Made by a program: the position numbers and the translations under genes. Shown here piece after piece: positions 3,230 through 60,994 of a stretch of 64,000 nt of DNA. Under the pieces are notes generated by a model. It was not told the DNA's origin. It did no database searches and saw nothing but the letters and a program-made list of their open reading frames with translations. The stretch comes from Tetrapyrgos nigripes (Eukaryota > Basidiomycota > Agaricomycetes > Agaricales > Campanellaceae), in NCBI GenBank assembly GCA_013368315.1, contig JAACJM010000068.1, forward strand, positions 62,001-126,000, read 5' to 3'. Each line of letters opens with the position of its first letter. The first letter of the stretch is position 1.

Positions 3230-3400
3230 GCCTTTGAGGATTTCCCTGATGATACTCCGTTCTCACAGGCTGGTCGTTTCCGTAAATGAAAACAGCCCGA
3301 AGGCAGTTTAGGCACTGGAGCTGGTGAAACATGCCACCACTTCCAGGGAGGACGAGCTCGCAGTTTGTTAGACTGCTGTAGATCCATCTGATTATGGGGA
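3230..3400 (-). pseudogene. UstYa-like (DUF3328) gene fragment
   Basis: The minus strand encodes MFHQLQCLNCLRAVFIYGND followed by QPVRTEYHQG. This matches, almost base for base, the stretch around the first His motif of the intact UstYa-like gene at 28630-29372 (FHQLQCLNHLRAVFIYGND). The fragment has lost the second motif: the position of EHC reads EYH here. The frame breaks on both sides, and no start, membrane segment or 3' half is present. It is a decayed partial copy of that gene about 25 kb away. The sequence from 3410 to 3780 has short ORFs but no recognisable continuation. Confidence 0.75.
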
Positions 3401-19600: not shown

Positions 19601-19964
19601 TGGTCATTGGCAAAAGTTTACCTGCAGAAATTACGTTGGAGATAGTAATAGTTAATGCGTTGTCGTACGCTTTAACTACTTACAACTTGTATCGTATTTA
19701 TGATGCTGATCCTAGGTACATCATATGTTGACCTTACGGGCACCGATGTTTCGATCTTGAGATATACTGGGAACAGGATGATTGTGAATTATAGTACATG
19801 AATACATGGACGACCTCCAGTACATCAGTCTTCAAGTAATATCAACAGTATTTATTGATTATTTATAGAGCTAGTACACAGACCCGGAGACAATCTGAGT
19901 CCAACACCCTTCCTTGTCAAAACCGTAGACGTGAGGAACACGTTTGTCAAGAGCTTCGACTGCA

Positions 19965-20359
19965 TCAACACAGAAAACACTGAGGAACACGCTTATCGAA
20001 AGCTTCGACAGCGTCAGGACCGTAAACGTGAGGTACTCGCTTGTCAAGAGCTTCGACGGCGTCGGGGCCGTATACGTGAGGGACTCGCTTTTTAAGAGCC
20101 TCAATAGCATCGGGGCCATAGACGTGAGGAACACGTTTGTCGAGAGCCTCTATGGCGTCGGGACCGTATACATGAGGGACTCGCTTGTCTACAGCTTCGA
20201 CAGCGTCGGGGCCATAGACATGAGGCACACGCTTGGAGAGAGCGTCCTCGACTGAAACTTCATCAGTGACTAGAATACGCCGCAATAAAAAAGCTACTCA
20301 CGAGGAACTGCAGCGCCCAAGAGGGCGACAGAAAGAAGAGCAAACGCTTTGAGTTGCAT
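19965..20359 (-). CDS. Kex2-type repeat-peptide (RiPP-like) precursor 1
   Basis: This is a secreted precursor of small repeated peptides. Exon 1 (20302-20359) encodes the signal peptide MQLKAFALLSVALLGAAVP. A 50-base intron (GTGAGT...TTTCAG) follows and exon 2 starts LEDALSKR. Five complete units then occur: VPHVYGPD followed by AVEAVD, AIEALD, AIEALK, AVEALD and AVEAFD, each closed by KR. KR is the cut site of the Golgi protease Kex2. A sixth unit starts KRVP and then loses the frame by one extra base, ending QCFLC and a stop at 19965. In the next frame the repeat resumes (AVEALDKRVPHVYGFDKEG) to a stop at 19874. Layout, signal and KR spacing match dikaritin-type fungal RiPP precursors. A TATA box lies about 85 bp upstream. 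The truncation would still leave five usable cores. Confidence 0.85.
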
Positions 20360-20440
20360 GCTGAAGGAAACTTGGAAGATTCCGAATGGCCAACGATACA
20401 ACTGGGTGGCTCTACTTCGGAAACAGAACTAAGGACAACC

Positions 20441-20447
20441 TTTTATA
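20441..20447 (-). promoter_or_regulatory. TATA box of precursor 1
   Basis: TATAAAA on the minus strand lies 82-88 bp upstream of the start codon. The same box in the same place precedes precursor 2, within a conserved context (GGGTATAAA). Confidence 0.7.
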
Positions 20448-21184
20448 CCCAATGTAACCACCAGGGCCTGCGAGGTGTGGCGAGTATTCGTGGCTGTTTG
20501 AATGTGGCTGCTAGCTAGCGCGCGCTCCGATCTAGATTGATGGTTGGTTCAGCTGACCTTTGAGGCTAAGATTGTAACGACTAACCAAAGGAGAATAGCA
20601 TCTGGAAAATCCAATAATATCTCGCTAGCTCGATCCTCTCTAATCCGTGCTGAGCACAGGAAAACAATACCGTACAACTGCCTACGCTAACACAAAGGCG
20701 ATCATCAACGATTTGCCAGTTACGAAGAGGTGTGCCACACTAGGTAGGGTACAATCTCGACAACGGAGGTATGTCTCATAACATTCTGCCTTCATATGGA
20801 TGTAAGTGAGCAGAAAAAAGGCCTCGTCGAAGTGCCGCTGCATAAGTGAGGTTTCGGGTAGAATTACTACAAACAAAAGAGCAACAAAAGAGTGTTAGCC
20901 CGACGTTGCAAAAATACCATGGTGAGCTTCGAACCGGATATACGGGCCCATATACACACGAAGGGAAGTTATTATACGCCCAAAATGTCGACATTGTGTA
21001 GCTCTGCAGGGCTTAAACCCAGGAAGAGTTGTGGAATACGTCTTTTGCAAATATGGTGCAATGTGGCGCATCATAATGGGTGCATTAGCAAGACAAATTA
21101 ATTCGCCTGACTCCTCAGCTTACTACTAGAGACAGTCGATTATAAGTACAAGTTGGATACATACCCAACACATACCTTAAAATC

Positions 21185-21590
21185 ATGAAGCTTAAGACTG
21201 AAGACCAACTTGAATGGGTCGATAAAAGATACCTGTCCCAATTGGATTGCTGCAGCTGGAAGGTACTAGAGTATACAGAGTCAGTGCAAAATGACAGATG
21301 GCCGAACGGAAAGTGGTTGCTCCCTGGATGGATGGCTTATTCCACGGTCGGACCTCTTTCCGGTCATCGTACGCGTCGACAGTGCTCAGCCTTCTGATCC
21401 CTCGGTTCCTGCTCCGCAACGGCTCCAAATGGATGGTTCAAACCAGTTATATGGATTCTATGTCGAGGCCGGCGTCGACGATTCCGGAGTCGAAGAACTT
21501 CGAGATTCTTTCTCGAAATATCAAGTTATCAAATAACAACCTCGAGCTCTTGTGGCGGGCTAGACCGCGTCTACACCCGGCATGTTCGTA
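21185..21590 (+). pseudogene. 5' remnant of an N2227 methyltransferase gene
   Basis: In shifting frames the stretch encodes DGWLIPRSDLFPVIVRVDSA, then PSVPAPQRLQ and GVDDSGVEELRDSFSKYQV. This parallels the N-terminal part of the intact gene at 23648 (GGWLLPRSGPLSINLNVPLP, then VTVRIDNPHALPVPNSGVDV, then EELK). The catalytic domain is missing and the frame closes at 21534-21536. It lies in the same divergent position relative to precursor 1 as the intact gene does to precursor 2, so it is the decayed partner left by the tandem duplication. Confidence 0.8.
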
Positions 21591-21922
21591 GAGGACCACG
21601 CCGTGTATTTCTATCTATCTATCTTGCAGAGCAATTATAAATTTCCTCGAGAAACCTATATATATGAATTTTCGTGGATTTTCTCCAGAAGACTAGACTG
21701 CACCGTGACCTCGTCTGAGATTTTCTGGGCTACATCGTTAGGGAATGAAATGTCAAATCTTTCCGACAATATTCCGGAGAGCACACAGTGTCTTGAAAAA
21801 AGTACAAGTGTATAGGACTTTAGTACATCGATCTTCATGTAATTTTAATTCTTATAGTGACTAGAGCTCCTCAACTTCCTCCCCCTGCTTGCCAGAATCG
21901 CCGAAATGGTGTATAACATTAA

Positions 21923-22670
21923 TCAAAATGCTTCCACAGCATCGGGGCCATACTCGTGAGGGACGCGCTTGGTAAGAGCTTCGACAGCGTCTGGACCGTA
22001 CTCGTGAGGGACGCGTTTGGAGAGAGCTTCCACAGTATCAGGACCGTACTCATGAGGTACGCGCTTGGAGAGAGCCTCCACGGCGTCAGGACCGTATTCA
22101 TGAGGGACACGTTTGGAGAGTGCTTCTACAGCGTCGGGACCGTACTCGTGAGGGACGCGCTTGGAGAGAGATTCAGCAGCGTCAGGGCCGTACTCGTGGG
22201 GGACACGCTTGGAGATAGCCTCCACGGCGTCGGGACCGTACTCATGAGGGACGCGTTTGGAGAGAGCTTCCACAGCATCAGGACCGTACTCATGAGGTAC
22301 GCGCTTGGAGAGAGCCTCCACGGCGTCGGGACCGTACTCATGAGGGACGCGTTTGGAGAGAGCTTCCACAGCATCAGGACCGTACTCATGAGGTACGCGT
22401 TTGGAGAGAGCCTCCACGGCGTCGGGACCGTATTCATGAGGAACACGTTTGGAGAGTACTTCTACAGCGTCAGGACCGTACTCATGAGGGACGCGTTTGG
22501 AGAGAGCCTCCACAGCGTCGGGACCGTACTCATGAGGTACACGCTTGGAAAGAGCATCCTCGACTACTTTTCATCAGTGACAATGATAGGCCAACATGAA
22601 ACAACTACTCACGAGGAACGGCAACACCCAAGAGGGCGACCGAAAGAAGAACAAAGACTTTGAGTTGCAT
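21923..22670 (-). CDS. Kex2-type repeat-peptide (RiPP-like) precursor 2, 13 units
   Basis: Exon 1 (22613-22670) encodes the signal peptide MQLKVFVLLSVALLGVAVP. The intron runs from GTGAGT at 22612 to TAG at 22564. Exon 2 (21923-22563) starts LEDALSKR, and thirteen units follow, nearly all VPHEYGPDAVEALSKR. Variation is confined to the spacer after GPD (AVEVLS, AVEAIS, AAESLS, TVEALS, AVEALT), and the last unit ends AVEAF and stop. VPHEYGPD itself is invariant in all copies. The mature protein is thus almost pure repeats, with Kex2 sites every 16 residues. Each released peptide carries one Tyr and one His. The precursor shares its upstream region with the N2227 methyltransferase (starts about 980 bp apart, divergent), and two UstYa-type proteins are encoded within 7 kb. 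A TATA box lies 80 bp upstream. The product is not known to me. Confidence 0.9.
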
Positions 22671-22749
22671 GTTGAAGGAAAGGTTACGAATGACTGAGGA
22701 TACAACTTGGTGACTCTGCTTTTCTTTTAGAACGGAAAATGGAGCAGCC

Positions 22750-22755
22750 TTTATA
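22750..22755 (-). promoter_or_regulatory. TATA box of precursor 2
   Basis: TATAAA on the minus strand lies about 80-85 bp upstream of the start codon, in the same sequence context as the box of precursor 1. Confidence 0.7.
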
Positions 22756-23647
22756 CCCCAATGTCAGCATAACTTGCGGGGCAGCTGTGGAGAAATTTCG
22801 TAGCTCTTTGCATGCGGCTGCTAGTACTTGCCGACCGATCTAGATCGAGAATTCGGGTCAGGAAATATTTGAGGTTCTAATTAGCAAGCAACAAAAATAG
22901 AAAAGTGTCTGGTCTGGCAATTCGGGATAATCTGATATCTCCACCCTCTTGGATCCGTGTCTAATTATAGGGGAAACTAATCCTCATGGGCCATACCCCA
23001 CGCTGGCTCAAAGACGACGAATTGTTGGTTACGAAAAGATGCGCCTCAGTTCACAACAATGCATCCCAACGCTTGCATTTCATGCACAGAGCAACAGAAC
23101 GCCGAACTATGGATTGAAATGCTACCGCGTGATTGAAAATTCGGCATTTGGGGAGTCACTAAGATCAAAAGAGGTATCAGCCCTGACGCTACAAGAGATC
23201 ATCAGCTACGAACCGGCAATCCATGTCCCCAAAATACAGTCACCCAGGAGTCTTGAAGCCGAGGAAAGATTCATTCGTGATACCATGCCCAAGGTTACGA
23301 ACCGTTACGTTCAGCGCTCAAAGCTACTAGTGGATGATCATGTTGATCAGAGCTCTTCCTGACGAAGCTTCTGATGCAGCTCCGTCTTTTGCAAATCTGC
23401 GATGCGGCGCATTGACAAAAACGAAGAGTTTGCGTAGCTTCTCAGCTTAGAGCTCAAGTGCACGGACAAGTTAGATACCTAGGTTGAAACTTCGAGTGCA
23501 GGAAGCTTGGAGCTGGAAAACACGGCAGTCGACATGAAAGAGATCCAAGAGACCTGCACTATACGGAGTTAGTACAGTTAAGTCGGTACAGATACTTAAT
23601 AAGGGGCAAAAAGAGAGATATACGAACCGAGTCCTCATCCAACTCCA

Positions 23648-25014
23648 ATGTCTCGCCGTGTTATACGCGTTTTGCTGTTGCTCATCGTGGTTGGTGTTGG
23701 AGGATGGCTTTTACCACGGTCAGGACCACTCTCCATCAACCTCAATGTTCCCCTTCCGGTCACTGTACGTATCGACAATCCTCACGCCCTTCCTGTTCCG
23801 AACAGTGGGGTCGACGTTGAGGAATTGAAGCCAACGCTGAGGACATTATCTTCCAAGCAACTTTCTATCTTGACCTCGATAACTGCCTTTTCCCGGTACT
23901 TGGAGAACGCGCTCAACATCATTGCGTACCGCGAAGAGCAATTTGGCCAGCTTCCTAGCAAACAGAAACCTCTTGCAGAGGCAATCGGTTATAGTACACA
24001 TCTCGAGGACGCTCGGAGCTGTGCTCGAGAAAATGCCAAGATTTTAGGCAAAGTCGCCGACTTTGCTCGCGATACCTACGGGTTTTCTCCAGAAGAGCAG
24101 ACTACAGAGGCACATTATGAATTTGTCGGGGATTTTCTGGGACATGTGATGAGGGATTGGAGTGACGAGGGAAGGCATGAGCGAGCTGTTATTTTTCCAC
24201 CTATTCTCAAAGCTTTGGAAGAAGGCATGTCGGGTATCAGAGGAAAGAAGAAAATTCTCGTTCCTGGCTTTGGTCTCGGGAGACTTGCTCATGAAATTGC
24301 CAACCACGAAGGTGTGTTTCTTCCACTTCTTTTTGCCCATTTCAATTCATCCTATCTTGTGAACAGACTGCATCGTTGACGCTTGCGAGCTAGACTACGG
24401 CTCGATCATCGCGTACAACTACCTCATAAACCAGACCATTATTCCGTTTGAGCACACTCTCTACCCCTACCTTACCAAATGGCAATATCAACAGACTGGC
24501 AAGGGACGTTACAAGTCCGTCCGTTTTCCAGACGTCCTTCCCACTTCTCGCGTCAATCTCGTGGAAGGCGACTTCCTCACTGAGTTCCCAGATTCTGAAC
24601 AGTACGATGCTATCGTCACGCTCTTCTTCATCGACGTCTCCGAAAATATCATTGACTTCCTATCGACCATCCACCGACTCTTGAAGCCAGGCGGTTTGTG
24701 GATTAACCTTGGTCGTACGTTTGGGATTTTCCTACTTAGACAAGCATTGGCAATCTTAATCATGCTGCATTATAGCTCTGAAGTGGGGCTCTTTTTCCCA
24801 TATGCAACTTTCTGCCGAGGAAGTCCTAGACCTTGCTGAACGGCTGGGCTTCAAGGTTGACCATGACTCAAGGCAGTCTATTGATGCTGTTTATGGTCAT
24901 CAAGTTGGGTCTCTGCTCAAATTTACATATGGTAAGGGTCTGGTCCCTGTTCTTGAAGAAAATAATTCTGATGTTCTCGTAGTCACACAGTTTTGGACAG
25001 CTCGCAAGATATGA
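23648..25014 (+). CDS. N2227 (carnosine N-methyltransferase-like) protein, membrane-anchored
   Basis: This is a predicted SAM-dependent methyltransferase. The N2227 family includes CARNMT1, which methylates the imidazole of His in carnosine and in some proteins. Exons: 23648-24311, 24367-24714, 24776-25014; a possible 48-base in-frame intron near 24933 leaves the ending FWTARKI either way. The product is about 400-416 residues. Residues 5-22 (VIRVLLLLIVVGVGGWLL) form one membrane segment. The family signatures follow: ITAFSRYLENALNIIAYREE, FVGDFLGHVMRDWSDEGRHE, the SAM loop ILVPGFGLGRLAHEIA, CELDYGSIIAYNYLINQ, PGGLWINLG and, across the last intron, GPLKW. The CELDYG word replaces the more usual NEFS-type motif. 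The N-terminal anchor would place the catalytic domain in the secretory lumen if type II (inference). It is divergent from precursor 2, and the pair is duplicated. The natural substrate is inferred only. Confidence 0.87.
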
Positions 25015-25049
25015 ACAAAGCATTTTCTTCATTACTATGTACTATATTC

Positions 25050-25779
25050 CTACCACTCATCCGGCATGGGAATCAAGCTATCATTGTTCCTTGCACACAT
25101 CGCAGGATGGTCTTCAGATTTCGCATCGTCGTTGTCCACCATGTAAACGTCCAAGCACTACAATATGAATAAATACAGATTCAATCAATCATTCATCCCA
25201 TATTCTCAGTTAACTCACATGGTAGTCCGCAATCTTGCTAGTTCCAGGATCGATTGCTTCAAACAAGAACATGCCATGCTCGTTTTCTTTCAGAGGGATA
25301 GGCATCTGCACGTCAAAACATAGCTGGCCTGTGGGTGAAATGGGGACATTTGAAGCAATGGTGATGGGGAACGCGTCTCGATTACGAGCAACACGTGTAC
25401 GTCCGTAGCGGACAGTCACTAACACTGACGTGTAAGCAAGATGGTTTTGAGAATTACGCGCTGTCACTCACCCAGATCACCAGGATGTCCGGAAAACGAG
25501 AAAAATGTTGTTTGGTACGCTGCAAACCTTTGAGGGTTGCGAATAGGGATACCTAAGTATCATAGTGAATTCATCAACTTCTTTCCCCATGACCTGTCCT
25601 TGTGTATACACACCGCAGAATGGCTTAAAATCCTCCAGTGTAGACCGAATGTCATTCGCAGGTCGACGTGTAGCCCATGGATAATGCACACTGAAGGATG
25701 CATGCGCGGATGTGGCCGTCTGGGCGTACGAGAGAATGACCGAGCTCAGAAAGAGCAGACCTTGCGTAGAGAGCAGCAT
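25050..25779 (-). CDS. BIM1/X325-like secreted copper protein (LPMO-related)
   Basis: This small secreted protein (184 residues) is of the LPMO-like X325/BIM1 type. These bind copper and act in copper uptake or at the cell surface rather than in polysaccharide oxidation. Exons: 25614-25779, 25472-25552, 25219-25418, 25050-25157. The signal peptide ends TATSA, leaving His26 as the mature N-terminus (HASFSVHYPWATRRP). An N-terminal His is required for the copper site of the family. Splicing restores PFCGGIPIRNP, the family's CGG signature. The middle has FFSFSGHPGDLVTVRYG and QLCFDVQMPIP, and the end EAIDPGTSKIADYHCLDVYM with further Cys. No GPI-anchor-like hydrophobic tail is visible. The unspliced frames look broken, so a pipeline could miss it. 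It lies tail to tail with the methyltransferase gene, 35 bp apart. Confidence 0.8.
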
Positions 25780-26397
25780 GGGGTTTGAGAGTCAAGGATA
25801 CCGATGTGGCTCTAGCGACTAGATCCTGTATTGTGAACAACCGAGTACTCGAAGGATTTGTGGCGAGCAAAGATTCTAGAATAGGTCTGCTCTATACACA
25901 TCTATGATTATCCTCGTAAGCCTAGGAAGACTAGGTTCAACCTGGGGCACTATTAATCTGAGATTGGGTAACTTTGGGTTGCGGATCCTTTCAGAATTCC
26001 CACTCGGAGATGATCGCCAAGTAGAGCAATTAAAAAAATACGACTACACATAGAAATGGGGCGCTCAGCAACTTCTAGTGCAACTTATTCCAGATTTGGT
26101 TGGAGGGTTTGAAGGGAGACCGGCGGTAAATGTGGCTACCAACGTTGCAGTATATCCGTTTCATTTGCTCGGTCAGCGACTTCGGTGTTCACTACTAATC
26201 AGCTTATAATTTTCCACATGCACGGTGTTAGCCTTTACCGGAATCCAGCACAATAGTACCACTTCAGTTCGTTATCCGATTCAAATCGGCGCCTTGTAGT
26301 TCCTAATTACCCCTGGCTTTACGGACTATTGAACCATTGGCAACATTTGGTGGCGTATTGGAAAACTTCCTGCAAGCTTACCCCCAACGTTGCCACG

Positions 26398-27166
26398 ATG
26401 TTTTCGATGCCTTCAGTGTTCAAAGTCGAAGCTGGCTCGCATCGCGTCGCTGCCATTGCTCTCGGTCTATCCCTCGTCGGTAACCTATTCGTACTCTTGT
26501 ACCAAACGAACATCATCTTCGGGGTCACTACTCCCAAATACAGTACGTTCTCTCCCTAGACTTCGCTCCAGGGAACTAGCTCTAAGCATTCTCCTATCAA
26601 TAGCTTACATCGACGCTGATCACCCACGAAACCTGCCTCTGGCCGTGCGACCCGCTAACATGGTCTTCAAAAGCAACCTAGGCCACTTCGGCATGGGTAA
26701 AGATCCCAAAACCTGGGCAGAATGGAGCACCCTGCGTCCTGTTGAAGCTGGGTATCTCTTCCTTGGCCAAACGTATCTCCCCATTGGTCTCTCAATGTGG
26801 CACCAATACCACTGTCTCGACCATATTCGTGCCTTAATCGCCCTAGGAGACGACGGCTCTGATCACACCGAACATTGTTTCCACTACATTCGTGCGAGTA
26901 TTCTCTGTGGTGCTGATTCGACGCTGGAACCGAGGTCGAGGCGAAGCTTTGATGTTGAAGGGAATGAGATCTTTCCGGGAGACGGGGTTACCCATACGTG
27001 CAGAGATTTCCAGCAAATTTATGATTGGACGATGGAGCAAAGGAAAGGTTGGTCACAGGAACAAGTAGACAGGTTTGGGATATTCGGGACTGCGAAACAT
27101 GGTAGTCATGAAGGAGGTACTAACACCGAGCATGGCATGCATGAAGGCACGAGGAGCGGCGAATAG
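26398..27166 (+). CDS. UstYa-like (DUF3328) protein 1
   Basis: UstYa-family proteins install oxidative crosslinks, usually at Tyr, in dikaritin RiPPs such as ustiloxins, and act in other oxidative steps. Exons 26398-26542 and 26604-27166 give 235 residues. A membrane anchor lies near residues 18-37 (RVAAIALGLSLVGNLFVLLY). The metal-binding hallmark HxxHC is complete: WHQYHCLDHIRALIAL (about residues 114-129), and the second motif is EHCFHYIRASILCGAD (about 137-152). A third conserved part, THTCRDFQQIYDWTMEQRKG, lies near the C-terminus. The ATG at 26398 is preferred because it leaves the usual short cytosolic head; an in-frame ATG at 26329 is possible. All expected parts are present, so it looks functional. 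It is the best candidate in the window for crosslinking the repeat-peptide cores. Confidence 0.9.
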
Positions 27167-27384
27167 ATGCATTGATTAATTAGCAGCTGTACTAGTACAA
27201 TGTTGTGAAGGCCTTGTCCACTGTAGCGAGCTCGATCTTTCATTGTTTCAAAAAAGTGAAATGATTCAGGTTGAAGCGGCCGTAGTGACTTGAACATATG
27301 TACTAGCTGAACATTTGCAAGAATAGACCCTTTCAAAAATAGATTGACGTGATTGGGATGGGGACTACAACTGAGCGCTGAGCG

Positions 27385-28335
27385 CTAAGGGATCTGCCTG
27401 AGTAACTCGAATCCTGTTAATCCCATTAAGTTCAGTTCACCGGCTCAAATTGACCACACATGGTAGATGGACTTACCCATATTCGGATGCACATCCTTAA
27501 TCTGACTAAAGCTGACCTGACAATCAACCCTAACGCATCTAAACTCCACCACCAAATGCTTATCTTGGCTAGGACATGCAAAGTTTTCCGTCGTCGCATT
27601 CACCAGATCGTTTTTTAGATCCATTGTGCCCAAAAGTTCTCCACGCACAGGCCGGTTGTTCCAAGACACGTTGTCAAAGTCTAGGTTATCGACGGTCCCA
27701 GGAGAACCGACCATAGGTGAGATGATGGACCAGACTTCGATCTCGGAGATATCGCCTTTCGTGGTAAGGTCCTGCTTACGCGTTTCGACAGGGCCTTTCC
27801 AGCCAAAGGCACAGAGCTGGTCAGTGGAACCCTTTGGGACGACGAATCTCATGAGGGTTGAGTCCTAGCAGTGAGAAGATAATTAGAATGATGACAAAAC
27901 AGATGCGATAGGACGGTTCACCTTGACAGAGATAAACACCTCTTGCGAGTTCCCATAGACGGTGTCCTTGATTCCTTGATTGATCCTCGCGATTTGCAAC
28001 GGCCATGTACGGATGTAAGGTCGAGGCAGTGTGTCATGCAAGAGTTTGTCGATGCGGTTGAAGCCGATGTGCAAATCAGGATAGGGCAGCTTGGCAAGGT
28101 CTTCTTCTGAAAGCTGATAGTGAAGGATGGTGTTGGGAATTAGGATGAGATTTACGAAGGACAGCAGAGCGACGATGGCGGAAGTCCATATAATGAATGG
28201 AGAGAGACGTCCTTTGGGAGGCGGGCCCGAGACTGGATTCTGAAGATTGGGGTCGACGTCCTCGGAAGAGCCACCATCTTGGTGAGTTGCGAGAGGAACG
28301 TATTCAGCCGAGTCTTTCCTGCCTGTGCTGAACAT
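27385..28335 (-). CDS. Single-pass membrane protein of unknown function
   Basis: Exons 27922-28335, 27477-27864 and 27385-27413 give about 276 residues; the last exon adds FELLRQIP. The polar head (about 45 residues) precedes one membrane segment, FIIWTSAIVALLSFVNLILI, and an extracytosolic domain. That domain contains RPYIRTWPLQIARINQGIKD, VYGNSQEVFISVKDSTLMRF, DQLCAFGWKGPVETR and EFRCVRVDCQVSFSQIKDVH. The C-terminal domain looks like a beta-sandwich of the kind found in But2-type proteins of fungi, but I cannot assign it firmly. It sits between the two UstYa-like genes and diverges from the second by about 295 bp. Its topology (short head, one TM, outer domain) matches theirs. A role in the same secretory pathway is a guess from position. 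Confidence 0.75.
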
Positions 28336-28629
28336 TGCTGCCTGAGGGCACGGAAGGTATGGGATGTGGGATGTATGAGGATCTGGTTTCTAGTAATATG
28401 ACAGGGATCTGAAAGTAGACATCGGGGCTATGTAATCCCCTGTTGTGCGCTGACTGTATCCAAAAATGAGGAGATCCAGATCTCGCTAGAGTTGATTTCC
28501 GTCTGATCCAATCTACAGACCCCGCAAGCGGGGTTATCCTGAAATAGTGTAGTCTCGACTTCGTGTAACAAAACTCGTATCCCGTCAACCCTGGGGGATT
28601 CTTCGTGCTTCAATCAAAGACCAAAACCC

Positions 28630-29372
28630 ATGCCCTTCATGAGTCACTTCTCAAAGCTACTTCGACCTTCACCGTTCACAATTCTTTGCACGGTCCTCAC
28701 ACTTTCCCTCTTCGTCAACCTGGTCGCAATCGTCAAACAAATTCGACTCTTGACTCCATCGTCAGATACGTACAGTGAGGATACGTTCGGAAATTACTGA
28801 AATCATGTTGCTGAGACCGAATCTGAACTTCCGCAGGTTATGTCGGACGTGACTATCCACGAGAGGCACCCATCAAACTACGCACAGTCAACCAAGCCTT
28901 CTCCGACGATCTTGAGCACTACCACCTTGAAGGTCGCCAGGCTGCAGCTGAATGGAATGCTCTTCATCCCGAAGGCCAAGGAAGCATCTACCTCGGCGAG
29001 TCAGCACACATCAACGAGGAAGTGAATGCACCGTACCAGATATCTATGTTCCACCAGCTCCAGTGCCTAAACCACCTTCGGGCCGTTTTCATTTACGGAA
29101 ACGACCAACCTGCGAGAACGGAGCATTGTAGCCAGTATTTGGTACAAAGCATTGTGTGCCTTTCAGATACGACTCTTGAGGAAGGAGGTGTTGGGACGAG
29201 ACTGATGGATGGGAGTGTGGTTGCACCTGCAAATAATAACACGCATACGTGTAAAGACTGGACTCAGTTGTACGATTTTGCAGCCGAGAATAGAGCGGGA
29301 TGGAATGATGAGCAGATTGAGCTAGAAGCCGAGCTCTCAAGGGGAACATTGTTGGCAGATTTAGACAGATGA
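28630..29372 (+). CDS. UstYa-like (DUF3328) protein 2 with altered HxxHC motif
   Basis: Exons 28630-28774 and 28837-29372 give 226 residues. The anchor is FTILCTVLTLSLFVNLVAIV (about residues 17-36). The outer domain starts SYVGRDYPREAPIKLRTVNQ and contains GSIYLGESAHINEEV. The first motif reads FHQLQCLNHLRAVFIYGND, so the second His of HxxHC is Gln (about residue 124). The second motif TEHCSQYLVQSIVC is conserved, as is HTCKDWTQLYDFAAENRAGW. The missing His could weaken metal binding, or the protein may act as a partner of an intact UstYa paralogue, as heteromers are known in the family. A near-identical fragment with the same Gln is found at 3230-3400, so the change is old. The gene is in the same orientation as UstYa-like protein 1, 1.46 kb downstream of it, beyond the membrane-protein gene. 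Confidence 0.85.
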
Positions 29373-56543: not shown

Positions 56544-59024
56544 TCAATCGGACTCGCAGTCGTCTTGCACACTGCCCATAATCACGTTGTAAATCTTCTC
56601 ACTCAACGCCGGTCCTATCCTCCTCCCTGTATTCCCTCCAATATCCTCCAGCATATGCTTCACCTTGAATCCCTTCTTCAAGTGTCTCTCCATCCTCTCC
56701 TGCTCTTCTCCCTCCAGAAACGCAAGATACATCGATCGCATCGTCGGATACCTCTTAACAATCTCACCAGCCTTCTCGGGACTGACGCCAATAACACAAA
56801 GTAACATCCTTGCCCATGTTTCCTGGACGGTGATAAACCCAGATTTGGAGTTGAGGAATTGGAATTGGGTAAAAGCTGTCAGGTAGGACTTGTTGGGCTC
56901 GCGGTGTCGGAGTTTTTTCTGGAATTTGAGAAAGTTGTAGCGTCTGATGTGTTGGGAAGGGATGACATGGAGTTCTTTGCCCTAGAACAGGATATTGTGA
57001 GTTGGGAACGGAAGGAAAAGAAGGTGAGACTTACTTCGTAACGATGTTGGATATGTCGATGCAGAGTCCAATAATAGTTGATTGTGTCTTCAATACTCTT
57101 GGTTTCCTTCACCATAAAGCCATCGATAACCTGGGTTTGCGACAATGCAGTGTCAATTGCCAAGTCGAATCTGTTCTTGTCCTCATATACGCCGTCTGAA
57201 GTAGTCAGAAAGCGAAGACTTGGACCTATTGGCCAAAAACAAACGTACTTTTGTATTCCTCGACGACGTAGAATACCTGTTTGATTGCACTGTTGGCTAA
57301 TCGGAACTAGAATAGCCTTCGGGTCAGCAGATGAAAAGATAACGATATCCACTACCCTCACCTTCTGTTCGTGAAACCGTCCGTCCTTGATACTCCCAAC
57401 CAAATCATCCAACCTCTTCCTCTCAAGGATCACGTCCAGAGTAATCGTGTCATACTCTGTACCATCACAGAAATGGGGCTTTCGCTTCGCAATCCAGCAG
57501 ACGTCGCCCAACTCTAATGCTCGTCGTTCAACATCCACGCCCTTGGCTCTCAAAGCACGAGCAATGCCATCGGGGTTCTCTCTAGCACTCTTTTCTCGAT
57601 TATCGAGCACGAGCACAACGTCGTACTGACTACCAGGGATGACCTTCCCTTTAAAGTCCGCGGGGATCTCGAAGCGGTTTGTCGTCGCATAGGGATCTTC
57701 GATGTCAATGTCCACATCCAGGACCTCGAGAGCATGAGACAAGCGAGGACGTGTTCGGCCGGTATTTCGGGAAGGAGCTGGAGCTGGAGCAGAGGCGGTA
57801 CGTGGCAAAAGAGTATTTGACGCGTTGGAGGCCATTTCTAGGACTGGAGGAGGCATTGTAGGGTTTAGCATTGTATAGGACTGAGCGAGAGGAGCGGGAT
57901 TTCGACTGGTGGATGACCCGGCTTGAGATAAGTTGGCAGGGGGTACGCATGATGTATTGCTGGACGCTGCTGAGGAAGAGGTTAGGTTCGGGCGAGCGAG
58001 CGATTGAGAAGGTTCGGAGATTTTTCGGGATGAGCTCGAGCTGGATGGAAGAACCCAGGTTTTATTGGTGAACAATTGTCGAGATGGATCTAAGCTGCCT
58101 CTCTGACTAAGGCGTTTGTCGAAGGCCGCGCTCTCAGCTGCGAGATCGACAGTGCTCGTTTTGGTTTGGATGATCCAAGTTGATTTGGGGAAATTTTCAG
58201 CAAAGGACCAGGGGGCATAGCCGACAAAACTGTCAAGGCGATTTGGACGACGAGGTGCATGTATGTTGTTACGACTACAGGGGTTATCGGGGTGAAGGGA
58301 AACCGATTTTCGGAAACTCGATTAGGATACCAGGTCCTGAGGCTAACTCGACATCTACAAAAGCTTCTTCAGAGCGTTGAACCCATCGTTCGTCTCCATC
58401 TGCGATAGACATGAGAGAAGTCCCTTCAAATCGGTTAAAGACACGCACCAAGATATGAAAACAAGAAAAGGTCATCTAACGTCGAAAAAGGGCGTGCCAC
58501 TGTTGATTGGGCTTGCGAATGATTGAGACTGGGCGCCTGACTTCCAGAAAAAGAAGATCTGGTGCTATTCAAAGCCGCACTCCCAGGCTGCTGAGAAGAC
58601 GTCGGTAAGGAAGGTGTGCTGGAATCTAGAGTGCTGGTGGATGCGGCGGACGCTGATGATTTCGTACGGTGAGGTGCCTTTGACGTGGTGGTTTTGGACT
58701 TTGAGTTCGCTCCAGAAGGACCTCCTGCACTTGGCAGACCTGCTTCCCTGGCCCGTTTCTCAAGATACGCCACTGTTTTGGGACCGATGTTTGGGACCTT
58801 GGCCGCTTCTGAAGGTGTGGCAAGAATATCGGAATATGCGTAGAGCGAATTTGCAGCTTTGTTGTAAGTCGTGTAGGGTCTGTCGATATCTGGAAAAGTA
58901 GTCCATCTCAGGTAGAGGACGCGAGAACGGCGACAAAATAAGTACCTTTGTCATATTTATCTCGCAGTTCGCAGATCCACTCGTAGAATATCGGATTTGC
59001 ACACTCTCGACGTCGTGGTGGCAT
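56544..59024 (-). CDS. MUS81: MUS81 structure-specific endonuclease subunit
   Basis: MUS81 is the catalytic ERCC4-type nuclease that, with EME1, cuts branched DNA such as flaps, forks and nicked Holliday junctions in the nucleus. The start at 59024 reads PPRRRECANPIFYEWICELR followed by DKYDKG, typical of the family. The N-terminal HhH part includes YLEKRAREAGLPSAGG. The linker is Ser/Pro-rich. The nuclease domain has VVLVLDNREKSARENPDGIA, ALELGDVCWIAKRK and LDVILERKRLDDLVGSIKDG, giving the acidic catalytic set with ERK-x3-D. After introns come DKNRFDLAIDTALSQTQVID, INYYWTLHRHIQHRYE and the C-terminal HhH domain with LCVIGVSPEKAGEIVKRYPT and stop at 56544. All key residues are present. It is divergent from EME1, sharing a 147-bp promoter region. 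Confidence 0.92.
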
Positions 59025-59171: not shown

Positions 59172-60994
59172 ATGCCTCTGTCTCGCAGCGATACCATTGA
59201 CCTCGACGACTACGACTTTGACGAAGAAGAATATACACAGTCACAGGCGACACTCCCTCCCTCATCCCAACTAGACGTCATCGAGCTCACCGACTCTGAC
59301 TCTGAAGATGCCATTCAGTCTCAGCCTCCACCCCCTTCTTCCTCGCCACAGTATGGAGTAATTGAGTTATCTTCGGACGAGGAAGATGCGGTCACCCAAA
59401 TGCGTCCTGTCTCTGTGGCATCTACAATTGCCGTGGACGCCGATTCAGACGATGACCTTCCGAGCATGGATCAGGTCCTTAACGAATATAGAAACCGTCC
59501 CGCAGTCCCTCGCCAAACTTCTTTTGGCCAGTCATCCAAACGCCGTTACAGCCAGGGCGCGGCTGATAATCCTTCCGGCTCTGATGATACACCATCTCCT
59601 CCCAAGAAATCGCGTCTTTATTCGACGATCAAGACCTCACCGAGCCCTCCGCCTAAACCCAAAAAGCGTACCAGAAAGACTCCGGAGGAGAAGCAGCGTG
59701 AAAAGGTATGATTCTATTCCTTTCTATTCATACAATATCTCAAGTCCCTTAATTACAGGAAGAAAAAGATGCCGCAAAAGCACGGAAGGAAGCAGACAGA
59801 AAGGCGGAACAGGTTCGGAAAGAGCAGGAGAAGCTCTTAAAGAAGCAACTGAAGGATATTGACAGACTGAAGAAGCAGGAGGAGAAGGACGCGAAGCAAG
59901 CTCAGCGAAAAGCCAACAATCGTCATGCAGACAAGAAGAAAGCCCTTGAAGACATGACCATCGTCCTTTCCAGTACTTTCGGACAACATTTCGTCGAGCT
60001 TCTGAACATAAAGATGCAAGAATTCGGAGCCAGCGTCGAAACTTCGCCTTCTCGCCTCCAAGGATACGATTGTGTCCGTTTTCGTCGACATATTCATCGG
60101 CAATACGATACCAAAGTCCGCGCCTTTGTACCTGTCGACCCTCCCTTTGACAAAGAGGAACCCGCCGTCCTCGTTCGCCTTTCGAAAGAGACTCTCTTTG
60201 ACCTCGTCAGGAACCAGAATCTTCAACAACTCGTCCTTACCCTCAGAGCAGCCTACAACCTTCCCCAAAGCAGTCAGACCCGCATTTTTCTTATGCTTTT
60301 CGGTTTGGAGAAATGGAAGAAATCCGCTCGTCATAAATGGCAAATAATCGAGGACGAATTGGCTGTTTTGCAATTTGACGAGCATACACATCATATCTAC
60401 GTGGAAAGTGACCAGGAGGCTGTTGATAGATTGTACAACGTTGCTGCTGACTACGGTGCGTGTTTTCGTGTTGTTATTTCTTTCCTTGACCTGACCCGTT
60501 AATTTCGTTTGTCAGGTATCAAGGAACAGAAGTAAGTCATTCCAGAATTTTTTCCAACTCATGCTCTTATACATGATTTGTTGCAGACTCGTCGAACGCT
60601 CATACCTCCCATTCTGCCCCAACGTCAAAATTGAAGCGGCCAAAGGCAAGGGCACGTATTGTCAGATGCTTGATCAGGTCCACCGTCTCACCATCTCCGC
60701 CGCCGAGGGTATTGTCGCTGAATTCCCCACTATGAGGGAATTACTGGATAGCTATCACGAGCTTGAGGGCGATCCAAAGGGGCGAGAGAGGTTGTTACAA
60801 GGGTCTGCGGTATGTCCAAGTCTTTCCATTGCTACGTTGTTGGCGTGTCGTGTTCATGGTATTTTCAGGTCAAACAACGTCAAGATGGTCAGGCAAGCGC
60901 AAGGGAGAATCGTAGACTTGGTGACGTGTTGTCGAAGAGAGTGGCTACGGTGATGTATGGAAGTGATCCCAATGAACTGGTTGTAAAAGGATGA
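59172..60994 (+). CDS. EME1: EME1, partner of MUS81
   Basis: EME1 is the non-catalytic ERCC4-like subunit that forms the endonuclease with MUS81. The start at 59172 leads to an acidic N-terminus with SUMO-interaction-like words (DVIELTDSDSED, GVIELSSDEEDAV). A coiled coil follows (KARKEADRKAEQVRKEQEKL). The inactive nuclease-like domain includes DMTIVLSSTFGQHFVELLNI, LFDLVRNQNLQQLVLTLRAA and QTRIFLMLFGLEKWKKSARH. The middle has KGKGTYCQMLDQVHRLTISA and AAEGIVAEFPTMRELLDSYH, and the end ENRRLGDVLSKRVATVMYGS with DPNELVVKG, a tandem-HhH tail. The catalytic ERK-type motif is missing, as expected of EME1. Introns lie near 59706-59759, 60454-60515, 60531-60586 and 60810-60870. Confidence 0.85.

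Follow-up and report, generated by a model that had tools for sequence, protein, structure and literature searches.

A recurring dikaritin-like gene cassette with a conserved His-x-Tyr core in the agaric Tetrapyrgos nigripes

Dikaritins such as ustiloxin, phomopsin, asperipin-2a, and victorin are encoded by precursors with a predicted signal and multiple cores between dibasic sites; UstYa (DUF3328) genes are found next to them, and the cores share a conserved tyrosine. A 2022 review places these peptides under the ascomycetes (PMC9233826). Of 1680 KEX2-processed repeat proteins (KEPs) from basidiomycetes, 103 have DUF3328 genes nearby, and it was suggested that the cyclisation factor of basidiomycetes might differ or that cyclisation might hardly occur in them (Umemura 2020, PMC7329392). 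The peptides reported from Agaricomycetes are linear or minimally modified (Vogt 2022, PMC9769878). Here we describe a locus from Tetrapyrgos nigripes, an agaric of the family Campanellaceae, within a 64,000-nucleotide stretch of contig C68 (the window); the genome assembly has 98.5 Mb in 587 contigs. From left to right, the genes are PRE1 (-), PRE2 (-), MT (+), LPL (-), UY1 (+), BUT (-), and UY2 (+): two repeat precursors, a methyltransferase, a BIM1-like protein, a UstYa protein, a But2-like membrane protein, and a second UstYa protein.

We think it probable that the product of this cassette is a ribosomal peptide. A CARNMT1-like enzyme likely N-methylates its histidine, and the UstYa pair likely cross-links its tyrosine, in a reaction that is likely copper-dependent. 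The initial annotation of the window had proposed a dikaritin-like locus for a ribosomally synthesized and post-translationally modified peptide (RiPP) in a basidiomycete. This is well supported, because the cassette recurs, its genes are under purifying selection, UY1 has an intact di-copper motif, and the core tyrosine is conserved. The cassette differs from the known dikaritins in its x-P-H-x-Y core, its histidine-type methyltransferase, its BIM1-like and But2-like genes, the lack of a tyrosinase match in the window, and its basidiomycete host.

A recurring cassette with a fixed core

The complete six-gene set (precursor, MT, LPL, UY1, BUT, and UY2) is present twice more in the genome, on contigs C93 (110.4-120.9 kb) and C31 (557.1-566.3 kb), with gene order and alternating strands unchanged. 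We found these cassettes when we used tblastn to search the sequence around other UstYa matches with the proteins of the window. Between cassettes, the proteins are 60-79% identical at the amino acid level over 15 gene pairs, with synonymous divergence (dS) above 1 in each, and the ratio of nonsynonymous to synonymous divergence (dN/dS) is 0.035-0.184 for the 14 of 15 pairs where it is defined. So these are old copies under purifying selection. The gene block that was first annotated is confirmed by gene models and Pfam matches, and chance repeats can be rejected as its source because the set recurs.

PRE1 (19965..20359, minus strand; exons 20359-20302 and 20251-19965) encodes 114 amino acids with five intact VPHVYGPD units and one broken unit, and PRE2 (21923..22670, minus strand; exons 22670-22613 and 22563-21923) encodes 232 amino acids with 13 VPHEYGPD units. 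In both, a hydrophobic N-terminus is followed by 16-residue units bounded by KR. The signal peptide is predicted from hydropathy (a hydrophobic N-terminus) only. With this predicted signal and several repeats between dibasic sites, the precursors are KEPs. The introns of the gene models are GT-AG and 47-63 bases long. These models agree with the two KR-bounded repeat precursors of the initial annotation, but PRE1 had been extended to 19871: its stop is at 19965, and one repeat spacing is 49 rather than 48. PRE1 ends in the broken unit VPQCFLC. Contig C87, which is likely the second haplotype of the locus (98.8% identity across 4.7 kb, starting within PRE2), has VPQCVLC and a stop at the identical place, so we rejected a sequencing error as the cause of the early stop.

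Nearly all units with 8 or more residues start with x-P-H-x-Y: 5/5 in PRE1, 13/13 in PRE2, 26/28 in the C93 precursor, and 24/25 in the C31 precursor. The three that lack PHxY are SPYGLDDVDKR and LPHKTVNRR (C93) and GYDFSEDDEFVGKR (C31); the broken unit VPQCFLC lacks it as well. The core histidine is retained in 69/71 units, and position 2 after the dibasic site is P or A, a Ste13-type residue, in 70/71. Among the 64 complete units of 16 residues in the four genes, P2, H3, Y5, E11, and R16 are invariant. (This table omits the three units without PHxY, VPQCFLC, a 15-residue unit from C93, and the final units of PRE2 and of the C93 and C31 precursors, which are shortened.) The flanks differ between precursors (GPDAVEAL, GLAKEEVV, and ALSEDEAV). 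Across the 68 PHxY units, histidine is encoded by CAT in 27 and CAC in 41, and the tyrosine codons are similarly mixed, so the units are not simply recent copies of each other. The proline at position 2 is a Ste13 signature, and trimming there would leave histidine at the N-terminus.

A profile search for the precursor in other species matched only D9758_009356 of T. nigripes, with foreign fungal DNA outside its scope. D9758_009356 is one of two small irregular KEP genes at C31:574.6-575.6 kb (L034), whose units contain PHTY, PHIY, PHRY, and one SHIY. Near these genes, at 579-581 kb, are a second UY2 and a second BUT. Both paralogous cassettes also have further UstYa-like matches past UY2. At other UstYa loci of T. 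nigripes, there were no repeat precursors in the 12 stretches that we searched (L037-L048), which did not cover the UstYa matches on C441, C178, and C71.

A predicted histidine-type methyltransferase and its possible substrates

MT (23648..25014, plus strand) has four exons and encodes 399 amino acids with a hydrophobic N-terminus. It was first annotated as an N2227 methyltransferase, and it does match this family (CARME, PF07942) with 196 bits against a cut-off of 27. A structure model of its C31 paralog P0001, which is 75% identical to MT at 95% coverage, shows the fold of CARNMT1, a histidine methyltransferase fold. The FFID motif of MT aligns with the imidazole-binding D316 of CARNMT1 and is present in 114/120 alignment rows. 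Given the sequence and the paralog's model, we predict that MT is a CARNMT1-like methyltransferase of the histidine-N type. With CARNMT1 (carnosine N-methyltransferase), it shares the fold, the S-adenosylmethionine (SAM) domain, and, as read from the alignment, the aspartate that holds the imidazole. It differs in its hydrophobic N-terminal anchor, in having GP[LF]KW where CARNMT1-type enzymes have GPLL[YW], in the residue at the position of H347, which is not histidine, and in being clustered with a precursor gene. The missing H347 might mean that histidine is not a substrate of MT, but we set this reading aside because nearly all of the GPLL[YW] rows have lost H347 too.

The initial annotation focused on the tyrosine of the core. 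The tyrosine is indeed conserved, but the histidine is equally conserved and was overlooked, as was the histidine-N type of the methyltransferase, and together these change the predicted chemistry. Among the matches listed for open-licence PMC literature, we found neither a CARNMT1-type enzyme linked to a RiPP nor a fungal cluster of this kind. A survey of lichens reports that UstY genes there have O- and SAM-dependent methyltransferases as neighbours (PMC12048977).

Some observations weigh against our explanation. Ovothiol enzymes tie with general methyltransferases. A homolog of MT from Dendrothele bispora (P0004) has FFIY in place of FFID and is perhaps inactive or of another specificity. 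And of the 76 KEPs that resemble putative pheromones of Basidiomycota, 17 (22%) have DUF3328 genes in their vicinity (PMC7329392), so UstYa neighbours are compatible with another fate for the peptide, in which Kex2, Kex1, and Ste13 free an unmodified His-x-Tyr signal and the neighbouring enzymes act elsewhere. The P or A at position 2 would suit this idea, and so would the peptides detected from Agaricomycete KEPs, which are linear or minimally modified and in some cases look trimmed by Ste13 (Vogt 2022, PMC9769878). On the other hand, the precursor and the enzymes have stayed linked at three diverged loci, and PHxY is fixed while its flanks diverge. KEPs that are annotated as yeast alpha-factors or as ascomycete-type pheromones are almost never beside DUF3328 genes (PMC7329392); the lack of such neighbours is an empirical trait of ascomycete-type pheromones, and here the precursors have UstYa genes nearby. 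The cassette resembles other Agaricomycete KEPs in its predicted signal peptide, KR units, and x-P Ste13 signature, but it comes with a conserved set of modifying enzymes, and we consider a linear pheromone to be unlikely.

LPL (25050..25779, minus strand; four exons, 186 amino acids) has a predicted signal, and its predicted mature N-terminus is His26. It was first described as a copper protein similar to lytic polysaccharide monooxygenases (LPMOs), which we tentatively correct to BIM1-like. Like BIM1-like copper proteins, it has a predicted signal peptide, a predicted mature N-terminal histidine, and a weak match to PF20238: with a cut-off of 27 bits, the copies score 26.3 (window), 23.6 (C93), and 27.5 (C31), so that two of three are below it; copper binding is putative. 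We did not find a credible match to LPL among PDB sequences.

The N-terminal histidine of fungal LPMOs becomes methylated. This raises another possibility for MT, that it methylates the N-terminal histidine of LPL and that modification of the peptide is left to the UstYa pair. A mature N-terminal histidine is predicted for all three LPL copies (SAH in 3/3 cassettes, with the cleavage site read by eye), and LPL adjoins MT in every cassette. Nevertheless, LPL paralogs are also found at C31:624 kb and C38:35 kb, with no precursor or CARME matches nearby, and the near-constant histidine of the peptide would require a separate reason. We think it quite improbable that LPL is the substrate, and we favour the peptide.

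In genome-wide searches, for which only the best candidates were scored, LPL was found at the three cassettes and those two further places, and CARME matches were found at the three cassettes, twice on C25, and on C20. BUT homologs were found at at least four places, all within cassette loci. BUT itself (27385..28335, minus strand; 276 amino acids) is a single-pass membrane protein, as was first annotated, and has a weak But2-like domain (21.3 bits against a cut-off of 24.2).

Pieces of a second, decayed MT (its upstream region and exon 1) lie between PRE1 and PRE2 at 21039-21729 on the plus strand, as identified by blastn and alignment. This likely means that PRE and MT were duplicated in tandem and that one MT was lost. 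In Artomyces pyxidatus, two methyltransferases of the LKW clade (P0006 and P0007) are on contigs of equal size (348,044) and are perhaps a tandem pair, as there once was in the window.

The UstYa pair and the predicted product

Both proteins that were first annotated as UstYa/DUF3328 match PF11807 (cut-off 25), with 60.4 bits for UY1 (26398..27166, plus strand; identical to D9758_009381) and 69.1 bits for UY2 (28630..29372, plus strand). CctR, another DUF3328 protein, is a membrane-bound di-copper enzyme that uses HxxHC(x)nHxxHC and requires Cu(I); the authors of that study propose that an accessory protein supplies electrons or Cu(I) (PMC12435403). UY1 resembles the CctR type: it has an N-terminal hydrophobic helix and two intact HxxHC motifs (HQYHC and HTEHC), and the full motif is retained in 9/9 of its homologs. 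In contrast, UY2 has HQLQC and RTEHC in 3/3 cassettes (the extra copy on C31 has HQLQC and RTGYC), which leaves it with only two of the four ligand histidines. So UY2 is likely unable to hold two coppers, and judging from its motifs, it is likely a structural partner of UY1. The cassette also encodes a candidate copper protein, and we propose that LPL could be the accessory supplier of copper or electrons for the UstYa enzymes. The structure prediction for UY1 had a predicted local distance difference test (pLDDT) score of 44.7, and a UstYa profile had no credible match among PDB sequences. The C93 copy of UY1 has one apparent stop among its mapped codons, near an exon edge.

Hydroxylation and halogenation are also known from DUF3328 proteins (PMC12435403), so the UstYa pair might hydroxylate or desaturate the peptide instead of closing a ring, and the product would be methylated, oxidised, and linear. 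The lack of a tyrosinase match (PF00264) in the window fits this; there is none in the C31 cassette either. However, the tyrosine is invariant in 64/64 full units and is two residues from an invariant histidine, and in the biosynthesis of ustiloxin, phomopsin, and asperipin, rings are formed at tyrosine by UstYa-type proteins (PMC7329392). We give a linear oxidised product a minor chance, somewhat above that of a pheromone, and still expect a ring. Tyrosinase is described as a requirement just for ustiloxins and phomopsins (PMC7329392), and because the window has no match to it, we do not class the locus in that subtype. Within the C93 cassette, there is a tyrosinase gene between UY1 and LPL (C93:114.2-115 kb, L030).

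Each chemical step is our inference, as are the placement of MT in the lumen and the functions of LPL and BUT. The precursor would enter the secretory pathway, where Kex2 and Kex1 would release the 14-residue peptides VPHEYGPDAVEALS and VPHVYGPDAVEALD. The x-P pair may then be trimmed by a dipeptidyl peptidase of the Ste13 type, so that His-x-Tyr becomes the N-terminus. MT would be anchored through its N-terminal helix and methylate the imidazole of the histidine; UY1, with its full set of di-copper ligands, would act with UY2 to oxidise the tyrosine, probably into a ring; and LPL would provide copper or electrons. The computed [M+H]+ values for VPHEYGPDAVEALS are 1483.71 (linear), 1497.72 (methyl), 1481.69 (-2H), and 1495.71 (both). 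For HEYGPDAVEALS, they are 1287.59, 1301.60, 1285.57, and 1299.59.

The papers that we consulted contain no dikaritin product from a mushroom, and we found no earlier description of the kind of small modified peptide that the cassette likely makes. UstYa-linked repeat precursors from basidiomycetes had already been counted in the survey mentioned above (PMC7329392). The cassette could serve as a test system: its core motif is short and fixed, the fold of its methyltransferase is known, and an intact and a degenerate UstYa protein are naturally paired in it. It also offers a candidate, LPL, for the accessory protein that the authors of the CctR study postulated (PMC12435403).

Other species and the rest of the window

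A search with UY1 gave 10 matches: 2 from T. nigripes itself, 5 metagenomic, and 3 from named species. The named homologs are on contigs of the same size as those of MT homologs: 214,206 for Dendrothele bispora, 698,870 for Cyathus striatus (whose MT record is short at the C-terminus), and 3,849,251 for Cordyceps militaris, where the locus tags of the two genes, within A9K55_001987-001989, are two apart. Stygiomarasmius has an MT gene as well. That the genes share a contig is judged from its size rather than from a gene map. Still, it appears likely that MT and UY1 have been kept together across two phyla, and the relatives in Cordyceps and other ascomycetes suggest that the same chemistry may occur in further fungal genomes. 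More speculatively, there could be a RiPP class across the Dikarya in which a histidine methyltransferase of the secretory pathway and a di-copper UstYa protein act on a PHxY core. Its product would be cross-linked between N-methyl-histidine and tyrosine and would perhaps bind copper, with the BIM1-like protein as the dedicated donor of copper or electrons that DUF3328 enzymes are predicted to need. We hold this broader idea only tentatively.

Our Pfam scan of the flanks of the locus took in 10 open reading frames. Two open reading frames, at 56882-58321 (minus strand) and 59753-60499 (plus strand), have matches to the ERCC4 domain. Finally, an isolated UstYa fragment of 42 residues, which is 67% identical to UY2, lies at 3252-3377 on the minus strand, about 25 kb away from UY2.

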